42,451 nucleotides of DNA from a virus, in the IMG/VR virus record IMGVR_UViG_3300048927_000100, positions 1 through 42,451 of that record. One strand, 5' to 3'. The position numbers and the translations under genes were made by a program. Position 1 is the first letter of the stretch. Each line of letters opens with the position of its first letter. This document shows, one piece after another, positions 31,766 through 42,451 of the stretch. The notes below the pieces were generated by a model that did not search any database, was not told the origin of the DNA, and was given only the letters and a program-made list of their open reading frames with translations.

Positions 31766-32170
31766 ATGAACGCACAGACCACCCAGCGTTTCACCCAGAC
31801 CCACGGCGGCGTGCTGACCGTCATCGATTCGACCACCGGCCTCGAGTGGATCGCCAAGCCGCTGGCTGGCGAATTCGAACACCAGAAGGCCATCGACGCC
31901 TGCGCCGCGCTGGACTTCGCCGGCCACAAGGATTGGCGCCTGCCGACCCGCGCCGAGCTGCTCACCCTGGTGGACATCACCCGCCACGAGCCGGCTATCG
32001 ACACCGAATCTTTCCCCGACTTCCCGAAGCGCGGCTGGTTCTGGACCTCCGACCTGTGCGCCTGGTCTTCGGCGGCCGCGTGGCTCGTCAATTTCGGCCT
32101 CGGCCTCGTCAGCCTCAACCACCGCTACGGCTACGGGATCGCGTTGGCCGTGCGTCGTGCCGGTCAGTAA
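31766..32170 (+). CDS. DGR variable protein 2 (DUF1566/lectin-fold), distal target
   Basis: The 134-aa product has a DUF1566-like body (STTGLEWIAK, DWRLPTRAELLTLVD, WFWTSDL) and a C-terminal variable region from about residue 98 (AWSSAAAWLVNF...YGIALAVRRAGQ), encoded by VR2. In this fold, related to the C-type lectin-like Mtd family, the variable residues form a ligand-binding face. No signal peptide, anchor or fibre domain is present. It lies 5.6 kb upstream of the template. What it binds is unknown. Confidence 0.85.
   Translation: MNAQTTQRFTQTHGGVLTVIDSTTGLEWIAKPLAGEFEHQKAIDACAALDFAGHKDWRLPTRAELLTLVDITRHEPAIDTESFPDFPKRGWFWTSDLCAWSSAAAWLVNFGLGLVSLNHRYGYGIALAVRRAGQ
32059..32164 (+). repeat. 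DGR variable repeat VR2
   Basis: 106 bp align without gaps to TR 37764-37869. There are 16 differences: 15 are at TR adenines (of 23 in the variable core) and one is a T to A change at 32138. The GC-rich 3' end (GCGTTGGCCGTGCGTCGTGC) is invariant and is the initiation region; directly after it VR2 has C where TR has G. Confidence 0.9.
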
Positions 32171-32198
32171 TTGGGCTTTCTGACATAGGGGTCACGAC

Positions 32199-32495
32199 AT
32201 GCCAGCCGACTACCAGATTGCCCGTAACGACGACGCTCCGGAGCAGAACGACGAGGCCTACCAGTTCGCCTGCGACCAGGTCGCGGCCGAGCTAGAGGCC
32301 GAGGCCGAAACCGCCGAGATGGTTTCAGCGCTGAGCGGCTCCCGGCATGTCGTGCACTTCCTGATGTCGCAGAAGGTTCCACCACACCTACTGCCCTATG
32401 CCCGTGACCTCGCTGAGTTGGTCCGCAACATCTCCGACCGTGTGGATGGGCAGATGCAGACGTTGAGCAGCTCCGACATGAGGGACGCCGCATGA
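32199..32495 (+). CDS. Hypothetical acidic phage protein, 98 aa
   Basis: The product MPADYQIARNDDAPEQNDEA... is acidic and helical, with a Glu/Ala-rich first half and a conserved-looking MVSALSGSRHVVHFLMSQKV in the middle. It starts 28 nt after the DGR target, and its end overlaps the next start. No family recognised. Confidence 0.65.
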   Translation: MPADYQIARNDDAPEQNDEAYQFACDQVAAELEAEAETAEMVSALSGSRHVVHFLMSQKVPPHLLPYARDLAELVRNISDRVDGQMQTLSSSDMRDAA

Positions 32496-32683
32496 ACACC
32501 TTCGAGAACACCCGGTTCCGCCAGCTGGTTCAGAAGCGCGCCGAGAGTTTGGGCTACTGCCCGATGACTGTCCGCCAGATCGTGCGGGTAGCCGTTGCCA
32601 CCGGCGTCGGCACGCTCGCGGCGCAGGCTCACCAGGTGGTGCCCTACCCCGCCAGCTCGGCGACATGCGGGGATGCGGCATGA
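32492..32683 (+). CDS. Hypothetical small protein, 63 aa
   Basis: The ATG overlaps the upstream stop (ATGA). The product MNTFENTRFRQLVQKRAESL... contains MTVRQIVRVAVATGVGTLAA, possibly a weak HTH or amphipathic helix. Function unknown. Confidence 0.55.
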   Translation: MNTFENTRFRQLVQKRAESLGYCPMTVRQIVRVAVATGVGTLAAQAHQVVPYPASSATCGDAA

Positions 32684-32883
32684 ACACAAATGAGAACGAG
32701 CCGATGCACCCCAGCGAAACGGCCATGGCCCGCTATCACGGCTTGACCAAGCGCGAGTACTTCGCCGGGCTGGCGATGCAGGGACTGTGCGCAAGGAATG
32801 ACGGCGAGCTTTCACACAACCGAGCCGCATATGCGGTGGAACACGCCGATGACCTTCTCGCCGCGCTGGAGAAATCCAAATGA
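32680..32883 (+). CDS. Hypothetical small protein, 67 aa
   Basis: The ATG overlaps the preceding stop (ATGA). The product has YHGLTKREYFAGLAMQGLCA and ends AYAVEHADDLLAALEKSK. This YFAxLAMQG..A...AD.LLxxL pattern is widespread in small phage proteins of unknown function. Confidence 0.7.
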   Translation: MNTNENEPMHPSETAMARYHGLTKREYFAGLAMQGLCARNDGELSHNRAAYAVEHADDLLAALEKSK

Positions 32884-32993
32884 ACCCCCGCCGCGAAGCC
32901 CTGATCGACCTGTCTCTCTGGTGCGCGTTCGGCTTGACCTTCATGGCGCTCGGCGCAGTGGCCTCCCTATTGGTGCAAGGAGTTGTGTGGTGA
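32880..32993 (+). CDS. Very small TM protein, 37 aa
   Basis: ATG 32880 and TGA 32991-32993 overlap both neighbours (ATGA and GTGA). The product MNPRREALIDLSLWCAFGLT and the following hydrophobic residues form one transmembrane helix. Function unknown; support comes from coupling. Confidence 0.5.
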   Translation: MNPRREALIDLSLWCAFGLTFMALGAVASLLVQGVVW

Positions 32994-33181
32994 GACGCGA
33001 GCGAAAGGAAACCGAGCGTGACCGATTCGAATTGTGGCTGAGGCGACAAGGTTTGATTCCTAAGCACAAGGCGTGGAACTGGGGAACCTATACCGACCCC
33101 GCTGTCGCAAACGCCTGGGCGGCTTGGAAGGCCTCAGCGAGATCGGCAGTTCGCCGCGAAAGGTCGAGGATCGCCAAATGA
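32990..33181 (+). CDS. Small basic protein, 63 aa
   Basis: A GTG start overlaps the upstream stop (GTGA), and the stop overlaps the next ATG. The product is basic and Trp-rich (RDRFELWLRRQGLIPKHKAW, AVANAWAAWKASARSA). The pattern 'FE.W......' ending '..AW.AWKA' occurs in small phage proteins of unknown role. Confidence 0.6.
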   Translation: MRRERKETERDRFELWLRRQGLIPKHKAWNWGTYTDPAVANAWAAWKASARSAVRRERSRIAK

Positions 33182-33315
33182 CCCCACTCACCGAACTGGC
33201 CCGCCTCTTCGCCGACATCCCGAGGCCTGAGCCGCTGGCACCCATTGACCCGATCGACACCGACGAAGCAGTGAATGGCGTTTGCGCCCAAGGAGATGAC
33301 GAATGCGCCATCTGA
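33178..33315 (+). CDS. Very small acidic protein, 45 aa
   Basis: ATG 33178 overlaps the stop of the preceding ORF. The product MTPLTELARLFADIPRPEPL... is acidic and Pro-rich. Its 3' end overlaps the following gene by 13 nt. Function unknown. Confidence 0.45.
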   Translation: MTPLTELARLFADIPRPEPLAPIDPIDTDEAVNGVCAQGDDECAI

Positions 33316-33560
33316 CCGCTGCCTTCCTCTGCGCCCTGGTCGCGTCGTTCTGCGCCGCCGTGGTGCTGCGCGCCCTGATCACCAATGCCGACAGTTTCAT
33401 CCTGATCGGCGGTATTGGCGCCCTGTTCTTCGCCTACCGCTGCTGGGCCGAGGTCCGCCAAGCGTGGCCGGCCTTCACTCGCCACTTGGCTCACCGGCGT
33501 GCCATGCGCCGCGGCGCGCCGCTGGTCCGCATCAATCTGCCCAAGGAAGACGTGCAATGA
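33303..33560 (+). CDS. Small membrane protein, 85 aa
   Basis: Two hydrophobic helices (residues ~4-24 and ~31-46; FLCALVASFCAAVVLRALI and FILIGGIGALFFAYRCW) are followed by a basic C-terminal tail. AAGGAGATGACG lies before the ATG. The stop overlaps the next start. Function unknown. Confidence 0.65.
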   Translation: MRHLTAAFLCALVASFCAAVVLRALITNADSFILIGGIGALFFAYRCWAEVRQAWPAFTRHLAHRRAMRRGAPLVRINLPKEDVQ

Positions 33561-34513
33561 GTGACCTGATCCCCATCGAATCCGTGAACGCGGTCGAAGT
33601 GTTCACCGGAAACGGCTTGGACGACCTGCTGGCGCGCATCCGCGCCGAGGCGATCACGCTGGTGCCTGACCTCTCCACCGTGGCAAGCCGAAAGGACATC
33701 GCATCGCAGGCCTACAAGGTGGCCCGCTCAAAGACCGCCATCGACGAGGCTGGCAAAGCGCTGGTGGCCGACCTGAAGAAGCAGACCGGTGACATCGATG
33801 CGGCCCGCAAGAAGGCCAGGGACACGCTGGACGCACTGCGCGATGAGGTCCGCAAGCCGCTGACCGACTGGGAAGCCGAGCAGGAGCGCATCGAACGCGA
33901 GCGGATCGAGGCCGAAGAGCGCGCCAAGGCGGAAGCCGAAGCCCAGCGCATCGCCGACCTGGAGCGCCGCGAGGCTGAGTTGCGCGCCAAGGAAGAAGCG
34001 ATTCGTGCCGCCGAGGAGGCTGAGCGCCAGCGCGTCGCCGCTGAGCAGGCCGAGGCAGCCCGAATCGAGCGGGAGGCCAAGCTGCAGCGGGACGCGGAAG
34101 AACGCGCCAAGCGCGAGGCACAGGAAGCGATTGCCCGGGCCGAGCGCGAAGCAGCTGCTGCAAAAGAACAATCCGCCCGTGATGCCGCTGCCGCCGAAGC
34201 CCGCGAGAAGGCCGCCGCCGAGAAGGCCAAACGCGACCAAGAGGAGGCCGTTCGACAGGTAGAGCAGAAGGCGCAGCACGAGGCTGAGCAGCGCGAGCGT
34301 GCCCGCTTGGCTGCCGAAGAGAAGGCCAAGGCCGAGGCGAAGCGCCAGGCAGATGAAGAAGCCCGACAGGCCGCCAACAAGGCCCACCGCCGCCGGATCA
34401 ACGTCGCCGCCGTCGAAGCGCTGACCGCCGAAGGCATCGACGCGGACGGGGCCAAGGCCGTCGTCACCGCCATTGCGCTGGGCAAGATCCCGGCCGTTTC
34501 CATCAAGTACTGA
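33557..34513 (+). CDS. Coiled-coil protein upstream of RecT, 318 aa
   Basis: After a globular N-terminus (MSDLIPIESVNAVEVFTGNG ... RKDIASQAYKVARSKTAIDE), most of the protein (residues ~100-280) is a single charged Glu/Ala/Arg coiled coil, superficially TolA-like. A short C-terminal domain (VAAVEALTAEGIDADGAKAV) ends it. Genes of this layout commonly precede phage recT and exonuclease genes. A DNA-end-protection or annealing-partner role is inferred only from context. Confidence 0.72.
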   Translation: MSDLIPIESVNAVEVFTGNGLDDLLARIRAEAITLVPDLSTVASRKDIASQAYKVARSKTAIDEAGKALVADLKKQTGDIDAARKKARDTLDALRDEVRKPLTDWEAEQERIERERIEAEERAKAEAEAQRIADLERREAELRAKEEAIRAAEEAERQRVAAEQAEAARIEREAKLQRDAEERAKREAQEAIARAEREAAAAKEQSARDAAAAEAREKAAAEKAKRDQEEAVRQVEQKAQHEAEQRERARLAAEEKAKAEAKRQADEEARQAANKAHRRRINVAAVEALTAEGIDADGAKAVVTAIALGKIPAVSIKY

Positions 34514-34520
34514 GGCAGAT

Positions 34521-35432
34521 ATGACCACCCAGCTTATGACCATCGAAGACTCGGTGTACGGCACGAAGGACGTCTTCGCGTCGGTGCTGACCGATCGGTC
34601 CATAAACTTCGACCGCGAGTGCGAGTTTGCCCTGCAAGCCCTCTACAGCAACGATTTCGCGATGAAGATCGCGCTACAGAACCGCGCCTCGGTCACTGCC
34701 GCTGTCGTGAACATCGCCGCCATCGGGATCAGCCTGAACCCGGCGAAGAAGCAGGCCTACCTGGTGCCGCGCGACGGCAAAATCTGCCTCGACATCAGCT
34801 ACATGGGCCTGATGGACCTTGCCATCGACTCCGGGTCAATCCGCTGGGGCCAAGCCGAGCTGGTCTATGAGGCGGACACCTTCGCCCTGAACGGGGTCGA
34901 CAAGGAGCCTACCCATTCTCGCAACCCGTTTGGTCGTGATCGCGGGGCAATCGTTGGCGCCTATGTAGTTGTGAAGACGGCTGACGGCGATTACCTCACC
35001 GACTGCATGAGCCGCGAGGAAATCGACGGAATCATGGCCCGCTCCCAGTCGGTAAAGTCCGGCAAGTCATCGCCGTGGAAGACCGATTGGAACGAAATGG
35101 CAAAGAAGACTGTCGTCAAGCGCGCCTACAAGTACTGGCCGAAGACAGATCGACTGGACCAGGCGATTCACCACCTCAACACCGATTCTGGCGAAGGGCT
35201 GGCAACCTTGGTCGGTCAGCCGGTGCCACGTGGCGCTCTACCGCCGCCGGCAGATAGCCCCGAACGTGATGCGCTGTACGCCCGTTTGCAGGACATCGCC
35301 ACGACCGGGCTTGAAGCCTACGGCACGGCATGGAAGGGCCTGACCAAGGACGAGCGGACGATGATCGGGCAAGCGGCGCACGAGGGGCTGAAAGCCCAGG
35401 CTGAGAAGGCTGGCGCCGTGGAGGTGGAGTGA
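34521..35432 (+). CDS. recT: RecT-family single-strand annealing protein
   Basis: The 303-aa product shows the RecT signature (FALQALYSNDFAMKIALQNR, then AAIGISLNPAKKQAYLVPRD, and ICLDISYMGLMDLAIDSGSI) and the C-terminal segment WNEMAKKTVVKRAYKYWPKT. It anneals complementary single strands made by the neighbouring exonuclease. ATG 34521 follows GAGG. Its stop overlaps the exonuclease start (TGATG). Confidence 0.92.
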   Translation: MTTQLMTIEDSVYGTKDVFASVLTDRSINFDRECEFALQALYSNDFAMKIALQNRASVTAAVVNIAAIGISLNPAKKQAYLVPRDGKICLDISYMGLMDLAIDSGSIRWGQAELVYEADTFALNGVDKEPTHSRNPFGRDRGAIVGAYVVVKTADGDYLTDCMSREEIDGIMARSQSVKSGKSSPWKTDWNEMAKKTVVKRAYKYWPKTDRLDQAIHHLNTDSGEGLATLVGQPVPRGALPPPADSPERDALYARLQDIATTGLEAYGTAWKGLTKDERTMIGQAAHEGLKAQAEKAGAVEVE

Positions 35433-36202
35433 TGCGCGTCATCTCCTGCGAACAAGGCAGCCCCAAGTGGCACCGCGCGCGCGCCGGCGTCATCACTGCC
35501 AGCATGTTTGGCGTCGCCCGAAAGAAGGTAGGCGGCCTCACCGAGCAGCAGCAGACCTACGTCGATGCAGTGCTTTCCGGCCTGGGCGACAAGGAAGCGC
35601 AGGCGAAGGCCGGCTACAAGGCGGCGCCGAAATCGGAAACGGTCGCCAAGGCTATCGCCGGCCTGCCGGTTGGTGATTTCTCCGAGGAATCGAAGAACTA
35701 CGCCTTCCGTCTTGCGATCGAGCGTATCAACGGCGAGCCGCTGGATGAGGGCTTCGAGACCTACGCCATGCGTCGCGGCCATGAGCTGGAGCCGATGGCC
35801 CGGGCAGAGCACGAGGTCCAGTCCGGCCTGATCGTGAAGCGCGCTGGGTTCATCGTCAGCGATGACGGCGTGTTCGGGGCATCCGCAGACGGCCTGATCA
35901 ACGACAACAGCGGGGCGGAATACAAGTGCTTCATCGACCCGTCCAGGCTGCGTGCCTTCCACATCGACAACGACGCCAGCGACATCTTTGAGCAGGTACA
36001 GGGCTGCATGTGGCTGGCCGAGCGCGAGGAATGGCACGTCGGCTTGTACTGCCCCGCCCTCGTCCACTGCGGCCGGCACCTGTGGTGGCGCGTGTTCCAG
36101 CGCGACGACGCGTTAATCGCCGCCATGGAGAAAGACCTGCGCGCTTTCGCTGACCTGGTCGACACCTTCCACCGCCAGCTGCAGGAGCCGCTGGCGGCCT
36201 GA
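35432..36202 (+). CDS. YqaJ-type (lambda Exo-like) exonuclease
   Basis: The 256-aa product matches the YqaJ/lambda exonuclease PD-(D/E)XK family: SPKWHRARAGVITASMFG at the start, YAMRRGHELEPMARAEHE in the middle, then VFGASADGLI (catalytic Asp) and AEYKC (E-x-K), and a Gln-containing helix EQVQGCMWLAERE. It digests 5' ends of duplex DNA to feed RecT. A GTG one codon earlier is an alternative start. Confidence 0.9.
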   Translation: MRVISCEQGSPKWHRARAGVITASMFGVARKKVGGLTEQQQTYVDAVLSGLGDKEAQAKAGYKAAPKSETVAKAIAGLPVGDFSEESKNYAFRLAIERINGEPLDEGFETYAMRRGHELEPMARAEHEVQSGLIVKRAGFIVSDDGVFGASADGLINDNSGAEYKCFIDPSRLRAFHIDNDASDIFEQVQGCMWLAEREEWHVGLYCPALVHCGRHLWWRVFQRDDALIAAMEKDLRAFADLVDTFHRQLQEPLAA

Positions 36203-36285
36203 TCCCCTGCTGCCCGCTCACCACGGGCAACAACACCCGCGCCGGCCGGCTTCCCAACGCCGGCACCCACACACAGGAGTCCAGC
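36203..36285 (+). other. Intergenic segment with two hairpins
   Basis: This 83-bp gap contains a 6-bp stem-loop (36211-36229, TGCCCG/CGGGCA) and a GCCGGC stem-loop (36245-36264), then ACAGGAGT as ribosome-binding site of the next gene. No T-tract follows. It may uncouple exonuclease translation from the DGR section. Confidence 0.35.
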
Positions 36286-36471
36286 ATGAAAGGCCAGCTC
36301 GACATCTTCGACCATGACCCGGCCAGATTGGCGGCGAAGCACCGCGAGGCGGCGCAACACGCCTTGAGTGCTGGCGATCAGGGCTACTTCACCGCCCGTG
36401 AGCGCTACGAGTTCCTGACCGCCGAGGCCGAGCGCCTGGAGCGTCAGGCGGGGATCAGGGCGGCTGCATGA
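36286..36471 (+). CDS. Small helical protein, 61 aa
   Basis: The product MKGQLDIFDHDPARLAAKHR... is helical and charged, with YFTARERYEFLTAEAERLER at the C-terminal side. CAGGAG is well placed. The stop overlaps the next ATG. Function unknown. Confidence 0.65.
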   Translation: MKGQLDIFDHDPARLAAKHREAAQHALSAGDQGYFTARERYEFLTAEAERLERQAGIRAAA

Positions 36472-36797
36472 GCAAGCGGCATCCCTTCGTCTGTCCGAAA
36501 CCGCCGATCGGTCGGCCGATCCATTACCCGCGCGACGTGCGCACCGTCCGCGACCACCTCCGCCGGCACCTGCGCGAGGAGGGCCGGCAGATGCAGCACC
36601 TGGCCGCAGCGTGGGGCGTCTCGAAGCACACGGTCTATGCGCTGTTCAACGTGGACCGGCCGCTGCCGCCGCAGCACGTCGAGGCATCCATCGCCCACCT
36701 GGGCCTGGACGACTTCGACGCCAACGAATTGAGGCTGCTGGCTGCCCGCGAGGCTGGCTGGCAGATCGACCCGAAGTACCTGATCACCACCCCGTAA
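36468..36797 (+). CDS. HTH (Cro/XRE-like) DNA-binding protein, 109 aa
   Basis: The product contains an HTH (GRQMQHLAAAWGVSKHTVYA, about residues 39-58) followed by a helical section (VEASIAHLGLDDFDANELRL). The ATG overlaps the upstream stop. It lies 16 nt before the proximal DGR target and may regulate the DGR section. The target sites are unknown. Confidence 0.65.
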   Translation: MSKRHPFVCPKPPIGRPIHYPRDVRTVRDHLRRHLREEGRQMQHLAAAWGVSKHTVYALFNVDRPLPPQHVEASIAHLGLDDFDANELRLLAAREAGWQIDPKYLITTP

Positions 36798-36813
36798 CCA
36801 CCAGGAGCACCAC

Positions 36814-37239
36814 ATGAGCAACCCGAAGTTCATCAAGATCGGCGCCGATGGCGCGCAGCTGCCCGACGACGCCACCGGCCATGTCGCCGTCTTCCTGCCC
36901 GACCACGGCCTGACCTTCAGCGCCACCAGCGTGGTGGCCACTGACTTGCCGCACGAGAAGTGCGAGGCGGCGTGCAAGGCCCTGACCCTAGCCGGCCACA
37001 GCGATTGGGACCTGCCGACCATCGAGGAGTTGCAGCTGCTCATCGACCGCAGCCGCTACAGCCCGGCCATCAACACCGACTTCTTCCAGGACATCCGGAA
37101 CGACTGGTACTGGACGAAAACCCCGGCCGCCTGGTCTTCGGCGGCCGCGTGGAGCGTCTATTTCAGCTACGGCGGCGTCAACTACGGCCCCCGCAGCTAC
37201 GACGGGTTCGCGTTGGCCGTGCGTCGTGCCGGTCAGTGA
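36814..37239 (+). CDS. DGR variable protein 1 (DUF1566/lectin-fold), proximal target
   Basis: The 141-aa product has an N-terminal beta region (FIKIGADGAQLPDDATGHVA), a DUF1566 core (DWDLPTIEELQLLIDRSRYS, WYWTKT) and the variable C-terminus from about residue 104 (AAWSSAAAWSVYF...GFALAVRRAGQ). It is a paralogue of the distal target, with a different N-terminal part. Twelve codons of the variable region correspond to AAY or CAC codons in the template. AGGAGCACC precedes the ATG. The Avd gene starts 25 nt downstream. The ligand is unknown. Confidence 0.88.
   Translation: MSNPKFIKIGADGAQLPDDATGHVAVFLPDHGLTFSATSVVATDLPHEKCEAACKALTLAGHSDWDLPTIEELQLLIDRSRYSPAINTDFFQDIRNDWYWTKTPAAWSSAAAWSVYFSYGGVNYGPRSYDGFALAVRRAGQ
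37124..37233 (+). repeat. DGR variable repeat VR1
   Basis: 110 bp align without gaps to TR 37760-37869 with 13 differences, every one at a template adenine (A to G, T or C). The last ~30 bp are identical to TR, and the next base is C in VR and G in TR, an IMH versus IMH* type distinction. The 18 bp after the initiation region match those after VR2 at 14 positions but not those after TR. Confidence 0.93.
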
Positions 37240-37264
37240 TTTGATTTTCTGCTGAGGCCTATCG

Positions 37265-37705
37265 ATGACTTCCCGCTTCCAGCTCCCGCCCATCCTCAAA
37301 GCGTGCGAACGGTTGCTGCTCGAAATTGAGCAGGCCGTCCGGCAGTTCCCGCGCTACCACCGCTACATGATCGGGTCGGACCTGCGCCGCCAGATGATGT
37401 CGGTGAGCAGCTCGGCGAACCGTGCGTGGCGTGACCGCGCCAACCAGTCGAAGTGGGTCGGGCAGCTGGTGTGGGACATCGATGACCTCAAACAGCACCT
37501 GCAGGCCGCCAAGCTGCTCCAGGCGTTCGGCAGCTTCCGGCAGTTCGAGATGCTGATCCGCCTGGCTGAAGAGCTGGGCGCGCAGGCCGGCGGTTGGCGC
37601 CGTCGGCTGGCAAACCCCCAAGCCCAGAATGCGCAAGCCAATGGCGTCGCGCAGCGTGGCCAGAAACTGAGTACCCGTGTCGCCTCTGAGGGGGCCAATT
37701 CATGA
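37265..37705 (+). CDS. avd: Avd-like DGR accessory protein
   Basis: The 146-aa product fits the accessory variability determinant: a basic four-helix bundle with PILKACERLLLEIEQAVRQF, YMIGSDLRRQMMSVSSSANR and VWDIDDLKQHLQAAKLLQAF, and a basic C-terminal tail. In BPP-1 the Avd pentamer binds the reverse transcriptase and template RNA. GAGG lies ~9 nt upstream of the ATG. Its TGA overlaps the RT ATG (ATGA), so the two are translationally coupled. Confidence 0.85.
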   Translation: MTSRFQLPPILKACERLLLEIEQAVRQFPRYHRYMIGSDLRRQMMSVSSSANRAWRDRANQSKWVGQLVWDIDDLKQHLQAAKLLQAFGSFRQFEMLIRLAEELGAQAGGWRRRLANPQAQNAQANGVAQRGQKLSTRVASEGANS

Positions 37706-39063
37706 CGAAGCTTCGCTACCAGCACGGATGCGCTGACGGGTCGAAAGTACATGGGGAGGCGGCCGCCTGGTCTTCGGCGGCCGCGTGGAACGTCAATTTC
37801 AACAACGGCAACGTCAACAACAACCACCGCAACAACAACGGGTTCGCGTTGGCCGTGCGTCGTGCCGGTGAGTTTCAGGGGGAAGTCTCGCTGCAGGATT
37901 TGTACCGGGCATGGCGGCGCGCGCGCCGCCAGAAGGTGCCTAGCTTCAACCAGCTCCGTTTCGACGGGCGTTGGTCCGATGGGCTGCTGCGGCTCGAACG
38001 TGAGCTGGTCGGCGGCACCTGGTCGCCGCGCCCCTCCACCTGCTTCATCGCCACCCGGCCCAAGGCGCGCGAGATTCACGCGCCGGACTTCGCCGACCGC
38101 GTGGTGCACCACTGGCTGGTTCCCCAGCTGGAGGCACTGTGGGAGCCGACCTTCATCCACGACAGCTACGCCAACCGGAAAGGCCGCGGCAGCCACGCCG
38201 CCGTCCGCCGGGCTCAGGAATTCAGCCGGCAGGTGCATTCGGGCCAGGGTGGCGGCTACTACCTGCAGCTGGACGTGGCCAACTTCTTCAACAGCATTCA
38301 CCGGTCGACGCTGTGGGGGATGCTCCGCAAGCGCATGCAGCGCCGCGGGCTGTCCGCTACGGCGCAGAAGGCCACGCACGCCCTCCTCCGCCGGTCGCCG
38401 CTGCATGCCGGCGTCCAGTACCGCGCCACCGAGGCCGAGCTGGCGCAGGTGCCGCCACACAAGCGTCTGGTCAACGCGCCGGCCGGGCGCGGCTTGCCGA
38501 TCGGCAACCTGTCCAGCCAGTTCTTCGCCAACGTCTATCTGGACGCCCTCGACCAGTTCGTGAAGCACGAGCTCAAGGCAGAGCGCTACCTGCGCTACGT
38601 CGATGACTTCGTGCTGTTCCACCACGACCGCGAGCAGCTGGCAGCCTGGCGCGACCAGATCGAGGTCTTCCTGGCCGACCGCCTAGGGCTGCGCCTCAAG
38701 GCTGAGCAGCACCTGCGCCGGTTGACCGATGGCCTCGACTTCCTCGGCTACGTGATCTACCCCACGCATACCCTCGCCCGTCAGCGGGTAGTCGGCCACG
38801 TACGGCAGGCTCTCGCGGAATGGGAAGGCGTGCACGTCGAGGGCAACAAGCTGCGCGGGCGCCCGTCGGCATTCCGTGACCTTCGCACGCGGCTTGCCAG
38901 CTACCAGGGCCACCTGCGGCACGCGAACAGCCACCACCTTCTGGCCTCGCTACACCAACGCTTTCCGTGGCTGGCCTGCGCTGCCACGCCGCGGCGCTTC
39001 AGCCATCGAGCCGAGCGCCAGACCATTTCCATTAATTTCAGGAAGGAGCCGACCAATGGCTGA
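37702..39063 (+). CDS. DGR reverse transcriptase with in-frame TR extension
   Basis: The 453-aa frame starts at ATG 37702 with GAGGGGG upstream. Residues ~20-56 are the template repeat translated (Asn-rich: NVNFNNGNVNNNHRNNN). The RT proper begins near residue 64 (LQDLYRAWRRARRQK). Motifs are REIHAPDFADRVVHHWL (~123-139), YLQLDVANFF with catalytic Asp191, the DGR-type IGNLSSQ (267-273) and YVDDF with Asp301/302. This RT class copies TR RNA with adenine-directed errors for transfer to the VRs. Translation could instead start downstream at TTG (Leu67) or inside the TR, leaving the TR non-coding. Confidence 0.93.
   Translation: MTKLRYQHGCADGSKVHGEAAAWSSAAAWNVNFNNGNVNNNHRNNNGFALAVRRAGEFQGEVSLQDLYRAWRRARRQKVPSFNQLRFDGRWSDGLLRLERELVGGTWSPRPSTCFIATRPKAREIHAPDFADRVVHHWLVPQLEALWEPTFIHDSYANRKGRGSHAAVRRAQEFSRQVHSGQGGGYYLQLDVANFFNSIHRSTLWGMLRKRMQRRGLSATAQKATHALLRRSPLHAGVQYRATEAELAQVPPHKRLVNAPAGRGLPIGNLSSQFFANVYLDALDQFVKHELKAERYLRYVDDFVLFHHDREQLAAWRDQIEVFLADRLGLRLKAEQHLRRLTDGLDFLGYVIYPTHTLARQRVVGHVRQALAEWEGVHVEGNKLRGRPSAFRDLRTRLASYQGHLRHANSHHLLASLHQRFPWLACAATPRRFSHRAERQTISINFRKEPTNG
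37759..37784 (+). repeat. Inverted repeat at the 5' end of the TR
   Basis: GCGGCCGCC (37759-37767) and GGCGGCCGC (37776-37784) form a perfect 9-bp stem with an 8-nt loop. VR1 retains 8 bp of it and VR2 only 4 bp, because the left arm falls outside VR2 homology. The stem contains no adenine. Confidence 0.7.
37760..37869 (+). repeat. DGR template repeat (TR)
   Basis: 110 bp with 23 adenines in the variable core, arranged as ten AAC, one AAT and one CAC codon, which cannot mutate to a stop codon. Both variable repeats align without gaps. The TR starts 58 nt into the RT reading frame and is in the same frame as the target proteins. After 23 free positions 4^23 (about 7 x 10^13) DNA variants are possible. 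Confidence 0.93.
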
Positions 39064-39274
39064 TATCGAACAGCAGGCCCGTGAACGCATCTTCCAAGAG
39101 CAGTCCACACATCACGTCTACCGGGGATCGTGCGGATCGCTGCCCTGCTACTGCTGGGCCACGGATGACCACGTGATCGGCGATGAGGTGAAGCGCGACG
39201 CGGACCAGTCCACCACCCTGGCCACCGTCAGGCCGCCCAGTGACCTGCGCACCAGGCTGCGGGAGGACCGGTGA
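39056..39274 (+). CDS. Small Cys-containing protein, 72 aa
   Basis: GGAAGGAG precedes ATG 39056, which overlaps the RT end by 8 nt. The product has GSCGSLPCYC in the middle, possibly a small metal site, and a charged C-terminus. The stop overlaps the methyltransferase start (GTGA). Function unknown. Confidence 0.6.
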   Translation: MADIEQQARERIFQEQSTHHVYRGSCGSLPCYCWATDDHVIGDEVKRDADQSTTLATVRPPSDLRTRLREDR

Positions 39275-40045
39275 ACTACTACAACGAGTTCGAACCTTAC
39301 GCCGCGCAGTGGCTGCGCAATCTCATTGCCGAGGGCCTGATCCCCGCCGGCGACGTCGACACCAGGAGCATCACCGATGTTGAGCCCCAAGACCTTGCAG
39401 GCTACCGACAGTGCCACTTCTTCGCCGGAATTGGCGGGTGGCCTCTTGCCCTGCAATTGGCCGGCTGGCCTGACGATAGACCTGTTTGGACCGGATCCTG
39501 CCCCTGCCAGCCCTTCAGTAAGGCCGGCGGGAAGCTCGGCTTCGACGATGACCGACACCTCTGGCCAACCTGGGGGGGGGCTCATCAGCAAGTGCCGCCC
39601 TACAACGATCTTTGGAGAGCAGGTTGCGCCAGCGGTTAAACACGGGTGGCTCGACTTGGTCGCAGGGGACCTGGAGAGAGAAGGCTACGCCTTCGCATCG
39701 ACGGTATTGCGAGCATCAAGTGTCGGTTCCCCTCATGACCGCAGGCGGCTCTTCTTCGTTGCCCACGCCGACGGCCAGGGAGTGGAGGGACTTGTCCAAG
39801 GCTTCAACTCTAACGTCGCTCGACCGTGGGGATGGCGTGGGGAAGAGGATATGCGCGCTATCGCCGCAGCTCCGTTCGAGCCCGGAGATCGTTGGCCTCA
39901 ACCCCTCCTTCGCCGGGTGGCTGATGGGATACCCGGCCGAGTGGGACGCCTGCGCGCCTACGGCAATGCCATCGTCCCGCAAGTCGCGGCCGAAGTGATC
40001 GGCGCCTACATGGATTGCTACCCCGATCCCGCGCCTACGAACTGA
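39271..40045 (+). pseudogene. DNA cytosine (C5) methyltransferase, frameshifted at a G9 tract
   Basis: Motif I (HFFAGIGGW, ~49-57) and motif IV (GSCPCQPFS, catalytic Cys79) are in the frame starting at GTG 39271. After a run of nine G (39572-39580) the family sequence continues in the +1 frame: ISKCRPTTIFGEQV (motif VI), DRRRLFFVAHAD (motif VIII) and LRAYGNAIVPQVAAE (motif X), ending at 40045. Eight G would restore one ORF. As read, the first frame ends at 39639 and lacks motifs VI-X. Either it is an inactive allele, a phase-variable OFF state, or a homopolymer sequencing error. It would protect phage DNA by methylation. Confidence 0.8.
39572..39580 (+). repeat. Poly-G (G9) tract inside the methyltransferase
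   Basis: Nine consecutive G follow T39571. This is the exact site where the protein family continues in another frame. Such tracts slip during replication and are a known phase-variation mechanism in methyltransferase genes. Confidence 0.8.
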
Positions 40046-40058
40046 CAGGAGACCCGTT

Positions 40059-40394
40059 ATGGGAGCCGCTGAAAAGCTAGACATCGTCGGAAAGGACTGG
40101 CTCACCGTGGATGAGGCCGCGCACTACTGTGGGGTGTCCAGGAGCCAGTTCGACTCAAACATCGCGGAATACGGGATCGAGCCGCGCAATTTCATGGGCA
40201 AGAAACTCTACGAGAAAGCCGCCCTCTACTCTGTAATCTACGGTTCCCGACAATGGTCAAGGTCACAATCTTCTGGCGGGACGGCGCCGCGTACCTCAAC
40301 TGGCGCGAGGGCGGCAAGCGAAGCCGCGTCGCCATTGGTCGCGTCGGCCCACGAGAAGCTGAGGGCATACGAGCGGCGAAAGAAGCAGAACTGA
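40059..40394 (+). CDS. Excisionase-like HTH protein, 111 aa
   Basis: The product has KDWLTVDEAAHYCGVSRSQF, a MerR/Xis-type HTH, followed by a short wing (IEPRNFMGKKLYEKAALYSV). GGAGACC lies upstream. It is directly before the integrase and overlaps its start by 142 nt; the Ser/Ala-rich C-terminal third is probably overprinted. It likely directs excision, or regulates the integrase. Confidence 0.7.
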   Translation: MGAAEKLDIVGKDWLTVDEAAHYCGVSRSQFDSNIAEYGIEPRNFMGKKLYEKAALYSVIYGSRQWSRSQSSGGTAPRTSTGARAASEAASPLVASAHEKLRAYERRKKQN

Positions 40395-41242
40395 CGCACG
40401 GGGTACGCATCCTGCCCCGGCTCCCCAGCGTCAGGGATTTCCTGGAGGCGTACCTGGACTGGTACAAGGCCGAGCACCCCACCACGCACGGCAAGGCAAA
40501 GAGCGAGGTTCGCCTGTTCATTGCCCGATTCGGGCACCGGCCTATCGACACGCTGCGGCCCATGGAGATGGAGTCCTACAAGTCGGACCGGCTCACCAAG
40601 GACAGGGTTGCGCCTGAGACGGTGGGCAAGGAAGTTCGGCGGCTGCAGGCGGCATTTCGGCGCGGGGTGAAGTGGAAGGAGCTGGACTTCAATCCGCTCG
40701 AAGAGATTCAGGCGCCGCGCGGGGTTCGCAGCGTCGCGGTGCGGTTCTACGACCGGGCGGCGATGCGCAGGCTCTACCGGGCCAATCCTGAGCGCGCCGC
40801 GCTGTGGCTGTTCATGGCGCACACGGGGCTGCGCCGCGGCGAGCTGGTCGGCCTGGGCAAGGAATCGGTCACGGGGCGCCGGCTCAAAGTCGAGAGCGAC
40901 CCGGACGAGGATGGCCAGGGGCGCACGAAGTCCGGCAAGTGGCGCGAGGTGCCGCTGAACCGTTATGCGCGCTGGGCACTTCGCCACCTACCCGACCCGC
41001 TGGTGGCCGTGCACAAGGACACGGTGTCCGACTGGTTCGCCTCAGATGCGAAGCGGGCGGGGATCGGCGGCAGCCTTCACCGGCTACGGCATACCTTCTG
41101 CGCCCACATGGTGATGGCCGGCGTTCCGCTGCGCCGCGTACAGCTGCTCGCCGGGCACGCGGACTACGCGACCACCGAGAAGTACTATGCTCACCTGACG
41201 CCCGAGGGTGACGACGGGGCGGTGGCCAAGCTCAGGTATTGA
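40253..41242 (+). CDS. int: Tyrosine recombinase integrase
   Basis: The 329-aa product has an N-terminal arm-type DNA-binding beta domain (TIFWRDGAAYLNWREGGKR), a SAM-like core-binding domain (~58-150) and a catalytic domain with TGLRRGEL (Arg194), HRLRH (His276, Arg279), GHADY (His302) and TTEKYYAHL (Tyr312). It would integrate the phage at the tRNA-Arg 3' end located 87 bp downstream. The start overlaps the excisionase-like gene. Confidence 0.93.
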   Translation: MVKVTIFWRDGAAYLNWREGGKRSRVAIGRVGPREAEGIRAAKEAELTHGVRILPRLPSVRDFLEAYLDWYKAEHPTTHGKAKSEVRLFIARFGHRPIDTLRPMEMESYKSDRLTKDRVAPETVGKEVRRLQAAFRRGVKWKELDFNPLEEIQAPRGVRSVAVRFYDRAAMRRLYRANPERAALWLFMAHTGLRRGELVGLGKESVTGRRLKVESDPDEDGQGRTKSGKWREVPLNRYARWALRHLPDPLVAVHKDTVSDWFASDAKRAGIGGSLHRLRHTFCAHMVMAGVPLRRVQLLAGHADYATTEKYYAHLTPEGDDGAVAKLRY

Positions 41243-41243
41243 G

Positions 41244-41261
41244 CTGGGACCACTGGGACCA
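41244..41261 (+). repeat. Tandem 9-bp repeat near the attachment site
   Basis: CTGGGACCA occurs twice in direct tandem right after the integrase stop, about 70 bp from the tRNA 3' end. It may be an arm-type integrase binding site. The att core is expected in the tRNA 3' part, but the second copy lies outside the window. Confidence 0.4.
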
Positions 41262-41328
41262 AACCCTGTGGATATGCGGGAAACAGTGGGAAATGCCGTT
41301 GGTGCAGCACGGCCTAAACCATTGATTT

Positions 41329-41405
41329 TGGTGACCCCGGCCCGATTCGAACGGGCGACCTTCCCCTTAGGAGGGGGACGCTCTATCCAGCTGAGCTACG
41401 GGGCC
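41329..41405 (-). tRNA. tRNA-Arg (anticodon CCT), prophage attachment site
   Basis: On the minus strand 77 nt fold as a tRNA: acceptor GGCCCCG / CGGGGTC, D-arm GCTC..GAGC, anticodon stem TCCCC / GGGGA with loop CTCCTAA (anticodon CCT), T-arm GCCCG TTCGAAT CGGGC, and an encoded CCA. Its 3' end faces the integrase, so this is the likely integration site; the phage restores the 3' end. Confidence 0.93.
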
Positions 41406-41550
41406 ACGGAGGGCGTAAAGGATACAGGCAAACCGCGCCTTCCTTCCAATCACCCGCGACGCACGCACCACGAGTGCCCCGTTACCCGCCACTCATCCCC
41501 GACGGCGGCAACTGCCCTATGCTCCTGTGCCCCCGCGATGAGTGACGTAA

Positions 41551-42195
41551 ATGCATTCCCTGTGGGTCCTGCTGTCCCAATTGGGCGACAGCCGCTGGTT
41601 GCTGCCGTTGAGCGGAGTGCTGATTCTCTTCGGTGCCCGGGCGAACCGTGCGCTGCGCATGCGATGGGCGGTCGGTCTGGTCGTTGTCGGCGGGCTGTCC
41701 CTCGCCTCTAAACTGGCGTTCCTGGGGTGGGGCATCGGTTGGGCGCGCCTGGATTTCACTGGATTCAGCGGCCACGCAACGATGACGGCGGCGGTCTATC
41801 CGGTCATCTTCTACCTGACGCTCCAGGGGCGGGTGCGGTGGCCACTCGCCGGCGCGGTGCTCGGTGCACTGCTCGCCGCCGCAATCGCTTACTCACGGCT
41901 GCCATTGAACGCCCACTCGGTGTCGGAGGTCGTCAGCGGATGGCTGTTGGGCATCGCCGTCAGCGCCATGGCCCTGCGGGCCCGGGATGACACCGCCGAG
42001 ACGCCACTGCCTGCCATCGCCGCCGCCGTGCTTGGGGCAGCGATGGCCCTGGTGCTCTTCTCGGGCGTGCGGACGCACGATCTGGTGATGCGCCTGGCGA
42101 CCGATTTGTCCGGACGCGGCGAGGTATTTACCCGCGCAAGCGCCTGCAGCCACCCGGCCTCGCATGCGGCGCCTGCCTGCCTGCCGAAGCGCTGA
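41551..42195 (+). CDS. PAP2-type membrane phosphatase (host)
   Basis: The 214-aa product has five or six hydrophobic segments and the PAP2 motifs FSGHATMTAAVYP (SGH) and SRLPLNAHSVSEVVSGW (SRxxxxxH). The first KxxxxxxRP motif is not obvious, so activity is less certain. Such enzymes remove phosphate from membrane lipid carriers such as undecaprenyl pyrophosphate or phosphatidic acid. It belongs to the host, beyond the tRNA. Confidence 0.8.
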   Translation: MHSLWVLLSQLGDSRWLLPLSGVLILFGARANRALRMRWAVGLVVVGGLSLASKLAFLGWGIGWARLDFTGFSGHATMTAAVYPVIFYLTLQGRVRWPLAGAVLGALLAAAIAYSRLPLNAHSVSEVVSGWLLGIAVSAMALRARDDTAETPLPAIAAAVLGAAMALVLFSGVRTHDLVMRLATDLSGRGEVFTRASACSHPASHAAPACLPKR

Positions 42196-42379
42196 GCACC
42201 CTGGCGGGGCGAAGGAAGTCAGGGCGACGTCCGCCATACGCCGGGCAATGGAGGCGACGAGGCCGCTGCACCGCCAGATGAGGCATTGCCCCCCTCTGTT
42301 ACCATTCGGGGTTCAGCTTGCCGCCCCCCCACCCTGCCAGCGGCCAGCGCCTTACAAACGCAACGCAACAGGAGTTTGC

Positions 42380-42451
42380 ATGTCCTCTGACCTGCTCAAG
42401 GCCCTCGGCCTCGACGCGACCAACGCTGGCACCTACCTTGGCAACGGCGAG
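42380..42451 (+). CDS. Start of an aldehyde dehydrogenase, partial (host)
   Basis: AACAGGAG precedes ATG 42380; 24 codons (MSSDLLKALGLDATNAGTYL...) run off the window. The start resembles antiquitin-like (ALDH7) semialdehyde dehydrogenases of Xanthomonad-type genomes. Too short to be sure. The 184-bp gap before it (42196-42379) shows nothing else I can call. Confidence 0.5.
   Translation, partial: MSSDLLKALGLDATNAGTYLGNGE

Follow-up and report, generated by a model that had tools for sequence, protein, structure and literature searches.

A phage diversity-generating retroelement whose template repeat lies in frame within the reverse transcriptase gene, next to a conserved folded RNA

Among the described diversity-generating retroelements (DGRs), that of Bordetella phage BPP-1 (avd-TR-brt) is close to the locus that we analyzed. 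Both have the same types of Avd and reverse transcriptase (RT), adenine-specific changes from the template repeat (TR) to the variable repeats (VRs), and the order target, avd, TR, RT. BPP-1 has a spacer RNA between TR and brt that recruits bRT-Avd, and the 3' end of its avd contains the termination motif (PMC12875486). The DGR of Burkholderia phage Magia is similar to ours in other ways: it belongs to a temperate phage, and it has a small target with a lectin fold near recT and nuclease genes. However, its RT is just 38% identical, our covariance model of the RNA described below (R1) does not match it, and its annotated RT ORF contains the TR without overlapping the avd stop codon. Finally, the Pseudomonas-phage DGRs of Cruim01, LPPA56, and SC_8_H2H8_2017 resemble our locus in having a structured RNA directly 5' of the TR, in their case the RT-15 RNA of Rfam (RF03018).

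DGR templates have been described as mostly intergenic (PMC8144416). In the accessible part of the DiGReF paper (2012), the RT and TR RNAs are proposed to be transcribed separately, and loci whose TR overlaps the end of the annotated RT ORF make up a cassette group ("group 3"); conservation of the frame, a shared avd stop and RT start, or an overlapping RNA structure do not appear in that part (PMC3521204). Within the portion of the literature that we covered, we found no report of a TR that is maintained in frame as part of the RT coding sequence, of an avd-stop/RT-start overlap within a structured RNA, or of the RNA itself. It is not rare for a single template to serve several targets (28.6% of surveyed DGRs have multiple VRs), and DGRs with DUF1566 targets are already known (PMC6642488).

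A diversifying element in a temperate phage

The window, by which we mean the whole stretch of DNA that we analyzed, is positions 1 to 42,451 (42,451 nt) of IMG/VR virus record IMGVR_UViG_3300048927_000100. Its left part carries, on the minus strand, a terminase and a tail-fibre-like gene. Its right part carries, on the plus strand, a repressor, RecT, an exonuclease, both DGR targets, avd, the RT, a methyltransferase, and an integrase. By this placement, the targets are small stand-alone proteins of the early region instead of tail genes, while the BPP-1 target (Mtd) is a tail protein. The integrase is followed by a tRNA-Arg and then by a PAP2-family gene (window 41242-42451), so the right end of the window is probably the prophage attachment site and the start of host DNA. 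The C-5 cytosine methyltransferase 3' of the RT is split, with the N-terminal part at 39271-39639 and the remainder at 39377-40045 in another frame. It looks frameshifted in the window record (39271-40045); in a related locus (L005), the two matched parts share one frame.

Table 1. Positions of the DGR and neighboring features in the window
Feature	Position	Strand	Evidence or remark
Target gene 2, DUF1566/Lcl_C, 134 aa, VR2 C-terminal	31766..32170	+	Pfam Lcl_C, E 3.5e-26
VR2	32059-32164	+	16 differences from TR, 15 at TR adenines
Target gene 1, DUF1566/Lcl_C, 141 aa, VR1 C-terminal	36814..37239	+	Pfam Lcl_C, E 7e-22
VR1	37124-37233	+	13 differences from TR, all at TR adenines
avd, 146 aa, stop TGA at 37703-37705	37265..37705	+	phrog_3206 'Avd protein of DGR', E 1.7e-18; Pfam bAvd
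Three-way-junction RNA	37630-37755	+	helices P1-P4; ends 4 nt before TR
P1, in avd	37630-37634/37649-37653	+	RNAalifold
P2, closes the three-way junction	37674-37680/37749-37755	+	RNAalifold
P3, holds the G-rich Shine-Dalgarno side	37682-37685/37692-37695	+	RNAalifold
ATGA, RT start overlapping avd stop, in P3-P4 junction	37702..37705	+	ATGA in 86/87 relatives, GTGA in 1/87
DGR RT gene, 453 aa	37702..39063	+	phrog_1423, E 6e-98; RVT_1, E 2e-15
P4, in RT leader	37710-37716/37730-37736	+	RNAalifold
TR (template repeat)	37760-37869	+	in frame inside the RT gene
Short conserved tail, at the IMH* position	37870..37881	+	VRs diverge here; TR/VR identity stops
Tyrosine integrase	40253..41242	+	Pfam Phage_integrase, E 4e-18; context of a temperate phage
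tRNA-Arg(cct)	41329-41405	-	3' of integrase

The initial annotation described a complete DGR with one template and two targets, and suggested that both targets had been rewritten. All of the parts were confirmed: TR, VR1, VR2, Avd, and a DGR-type RT. As claimed, both VRs align with the TR without gaps and differ from it at adenines. VR1 aligns over 110 nt (BLAST E 5.7e-37), and since adenines account for 23 of these 110 bases in the TR, random placement would give its pattern of differences with a probability of about 1e-9. VR2 aligns over 106 nt, and its one difference at another base is T-to-A. There is support, too, for VR1 and VR2 having been rewritten independently. We found no further copy of the TR in the whole record.

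Both targets score above the Pfam cut-off for Lcl_C (PF07603), and by this Lcl_C/DUF1566 profile they are predicted to be of the C-type-lectin kind. In each, 6 nt separate the end of the VR from the end of the gene. Orthologues of target gene 2 in relatives also lie far upstream of avd. The Avd-like gene is borne out by its match to phrog_3206; its match to Pfam bAvd (E 1.4e-7) is under the Pfam cut-off. The RT has the motifs LPIGNLSSQ and YVDD, as expected from the initial annotation (IGNLSSQ and YVDD), and the screen against DGR-RT profiles was positive. By sequence, the nearest solved chain is 8ub7 (E 2e-53), which we take to be the BPP-1 RT. The repeats, the Avd, the DGR-type RT, and the two Lcl_C/DUF1566 targets together indicate that the DGR assignment is correct, and the DGR-defining features that we tested are confirmed for this element.

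To look at diversification more broadly, we pooled 180 TR-VR pairs over the relatives of this element. Among 2,638 substitutions, 2,587 were at TR adenines. Adenines had changed at a rate of 0.60 and other bases at 0.0033; our scoring of TR-VR pairs tolerates mismatches at A, which somewhat favors this contrast, yet the contrast is far beyond such a bias. Close relatives (RT 94-97% identical) have nearly the same TR and different VRs, which differ essentially only at positions of TR adenines. Near-identical RTs and TRs with differing VRs support the view, from comparison of the genomes, that the DGR is active. Each locus has 1-3 VRs in the stretch that we fetched, on three kinds of DUF1566 target. 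Some loci (L015, L018, L024, L083, and similar ones) have up to three DUF1566 target families for one TR, and the window keeps two.

The template repeat within the RT reading frame

A TR located between avd and the RT is incorrect, as the TR falls within the RT reading frame. The initial annotation overlooked both the in-frame TR and the structured RNA 5' of it. The RT frame is open from the ATG at 37702, which overlaps the avd stop, through the TR to the RT core at 37891, 21 nt past the TR. In the predicted protein, residues 1-19 are a leader (MTKLRYQHG...), residues 20-56 are encoded by the TR (...AWNVNFNNGNVNNNHR), and the RT fold begins at about residue 61. AlphaFold2 gives a confident RT fold from there on and pLDDT < 50 for residues 1-60.

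We compared this arrangement with relatives, including 79 from IMG/VR, 80 loci from genomes, and phage records. The in-frame set is 87 loci that have avd and whose RT shares 55% identity or more with that of the window. In 87/87, the avd stop overlaps the start of the RT frame (ATG in 86, GTG in 1) and no stop codon occurs up to the RT core. The distance from ATGA to the core takes 19 distinct values among the relatives, and every one is a multiple of 3. Kinship inflates the 87/87 (there are 63 representatives at <93% identity), so the 19 distinct lengths are the more cautious count. As a check, we used the RNA model: in 22/22 loci found by RNA searches alone, which partly overlap the earlier set, the frame that opens at the ATGA runs on across the TR and into the RT. 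In contrast, 62 more distant DGRs are spread across the three frames (23/22/17), and 45 of the 62 have in-frame stops before the RT core. Some Pseudomonas-type groups have an open frame through the TR without a constant distance from the avd stop; we did not count these as in-frame because GC-rich DNA yields open frames by chance.

Two kinds of relatives are informative about the start and the frame. In three loci (L050, L052, and L074), the ATGA holds the sole ATG, GTG, or TTG codon up to 15 codons into the RT core. In four others (L036, L051, L059, and L066), the frame of the TR is shifted, so that it encodes a Thr-rich instead of an Asn-rich peptide, and the RT frame is regained 3' of the TR; L187, one of the 22 loci from the RNA searches, is a further case of a shifted TR with an intact RT frame, for a total of five. 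(Automatic calls of the TR frame from the ORFs of the VRs gave some wrong votes in GC-rich DNA, and we accepted shifted TRs only where the translation shows them, which is the case for these five.) A shifted TR with a restored RT frame implies that the reading frame is being preserved and not the peptide. In the shifted members, the TR RNA presumably still templates the usual frame with Asn codons in the targets.

The conservation of the start and of the frame is established by these comparisons, and from it we deduce that the RT is probably translated from ATGA through the TR. The layout, with the TR in frame in the RT gene beside a folded RNA, is common to about 100 related phages and prophages, and it is kept over divergence down to about 56% identity of the RT.

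A structured RNA 5' of the template repeat

We predicted the structure of the region 5' of the TR with RNAalifold on 52 sequences. The predicted three-way junction (Table 1) spans the end of avd and the RT leader. It encloses the Shine-Dalgarno sequence and the start codon of the RT, with the ATGA in the junction. Of the 21 base pairs, 17 show compensatory changes, and 95.9% of cells pair, as compared to 79.4% in shuffles and 30-52% if the partners are slid. When we scanned the alignment in windows against column shuffles, this junction had z = -14, two windows overlapping the RNA had z = -8 and -5, and z was about -3 or weaker elsewhere.

Synonymous divergence (pS) points to the same region. 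It is about 0.55-0.6 across the gene bodies of avd and the RT, 0.28-0.32 in the last 26 codons of avd, 0.18-0.43 in RT codons 1-56, and 0.54 directly after. On a finer scale, pS is 0.27 in RT codons 56-60 and 0.65 in codons 61-65, so the constraint stops about 12 nt past the TR. In other words, low synonymous divergence is restricted to the last part of avd, the leader of the RT, and the TR with these 12 or so nucleotides.

This is not where BPP-1 has its spacer: here it is the 5' flank of the TR that carries the conserved RNA. On the 3' side, where the RT core follows after just 21 nt, we saw little sign of one. Neither pS nor the alifold scan gave a clear signal for an element 3' of the TR like that of BPP-1. 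Two windows there have z of -3.0 and -2.1, and pS is 0.6-0.7 from codon 61 on; a structure that is variable in sequence is possible.

When we searched the window against Rfam for DGR RNAs already described, the sole matches were the tRNA and chance ones. RF03018 has no match in the window even at a relaxed E-value, nor in the loci of the clade that we tested. Conversely, R1 matches none of the carriers of RT-15, where the RNA lies between avd and the TR. We did find RT-15 RNAs directly 5' of the TR in three loci (L164, 5687-5879; L163, 5700-5891; L165, 5677-5867). The presence of RT-15 RNAs 5' of the TR in Pseudomonas-phage DGRs suggests that template-side RNAs on the 5' side are more widespread among DGRs.

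R1 also matches beside the TR in sister and outgroup DGRs, with 68 bits in L108, 60 in L101, 54 in L100, and 52 in L155, as well as in L104, L099, L073, L102, and weaker ones. In these, some or all of the RNA is intergenic, and the start of the RT lies beyond the TR. The sequences show a single origin of the in-frame layout from DGRs with the RNA between genes. In the RT tree, the in-frame loci form a single clade with SH-aLRT support of 99, and the nearest sister group has its TR outside the RT. The simplest history is that a template RNA between genes was captured once into coding sequence, in phages of Xanthomonadales. On one side, avd would have been extended into the RNA; on the other, the start of the RT would have moved into it, and the TR and RT would have lost the gap that separated them. 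The named hosts are Stenotrophomonas, Xanthomonas, Pseudoxanthomonas, Lysobacter, Luteimonas, Arenimonas, Rhodanobacter, Dyella, and Dokdonella. Of 395 species genomes of Lysobacteraceae that we searched with the RNA model, 19 have the element.

Translation, templating, and the alternatives

We think it very probable that this is an active DGR whose RT is translated from the avd stop/start overlap through the TR, and whose message holds the three-way-junction RNA, the TR, and the RT core. In the proposed mechanism, a single avd-RT messenger would contain, in order, the three-way-junction RNA (from the end of avd and the RT leader), the TR, and the RT core. Ribosomes would re-initiate after avd, so that the RT would be made by translational coupling, and they would translate from the overlap straight through the TR. 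The RT would copy the TR RNA and misread adenines, and the cDNA would replace the VRs of the two DUF1566 targets. The folded RNA would mark or recruit the template; here our guide is BPP-1, with its termination motif at the end of avd and its 3' spacer that recruits bRT-Avd. Because the Shine-Dalgarno sequence and the start of the RT sit in the fold, we infer that translation and templating would compete.

A stronger form of this idea is possible, and we hold it tentatively: the avd-RT transcript may be bifunctional, either message or template, which would couple the choice of template, the supply of RT, and the RT:Avd ratio in cis. Ribosomes that finish avd would melt the three-way junction, restart at ATGA, and make RT through the TR. 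Without ribosomes, the RNA would fold, hide the Shine-Dalgarno sequence and start of the RT, and become a template for RT-Avd.

A serious rival, and a real possibility, is that the layout reflects compaction of the genome and no regulation. The TR would be a tolerated disordered tail of the RT, the RNA would be the usual mark of a template, and translation and templating would not be linked. This would fit with the predicted disorder of RT residues 1-60, with TR-encoded peptides that can switch frame completely, and with an RNA that predates the capture. However, compaction alone does not predict that the Shine-Dalgarno sequence and start of the RT would be inside a conserved fold, and given that placement, at least steric competition is expected. 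It is unlikely that the TR-encoded N-terminal peptide has a function in the RT protein, such as contact with Avd or with the target protein. A leader motif (MTxPRYPxGCAAGSQVxG) and the residues encoded by the TR are conserved in most members, but the conservation of the leader coincides with P4 and with low pS, the peptide is Thr-rich in at least five members, and the region is predicted to be disordered. Finally, it is very improbable that the RT starts inside or after the TR (for example, at a GTG or TTG near its 3' end) and that the upstream open frame is incidental, as it may be in other DGRs whose TR overlaps the annotated RT ORF: in-frame TTG and GTG codons do occur 42 and 36 nt 5' of the RT core in the window and in many relatives, and more distant DGRs must start the RT after the TR or within its end because of upstream stops, but an internal start leaves unexplained the constancy of the frame in 87/87 loci across 19 lengths, the invariant ATGA, the members with no other start codon, and the restoration of the frame around shifted TRs. 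In most members, an internal GTG or TTG may give rise to a second, shorter RT besides the one that starts at ATGA.

In this lineage of phages, the same bases serve as message, as template, and as structured RNA, and the layout makes it testable how a retroelement decides between translating an RNA and copying it. The covarying RNA 5' of the TR has no match in Rfam and also occurs in DGRs outside the clade. It points toward a recognition element on the template side that is unlike the 3' spacer of BPP-1, and the RNA model is a handle for finding further members. If the transcript is indeed bifunctional, then the choice of template, the supply of RT, and the RT:Avd ratio would be self-limiting in cis.
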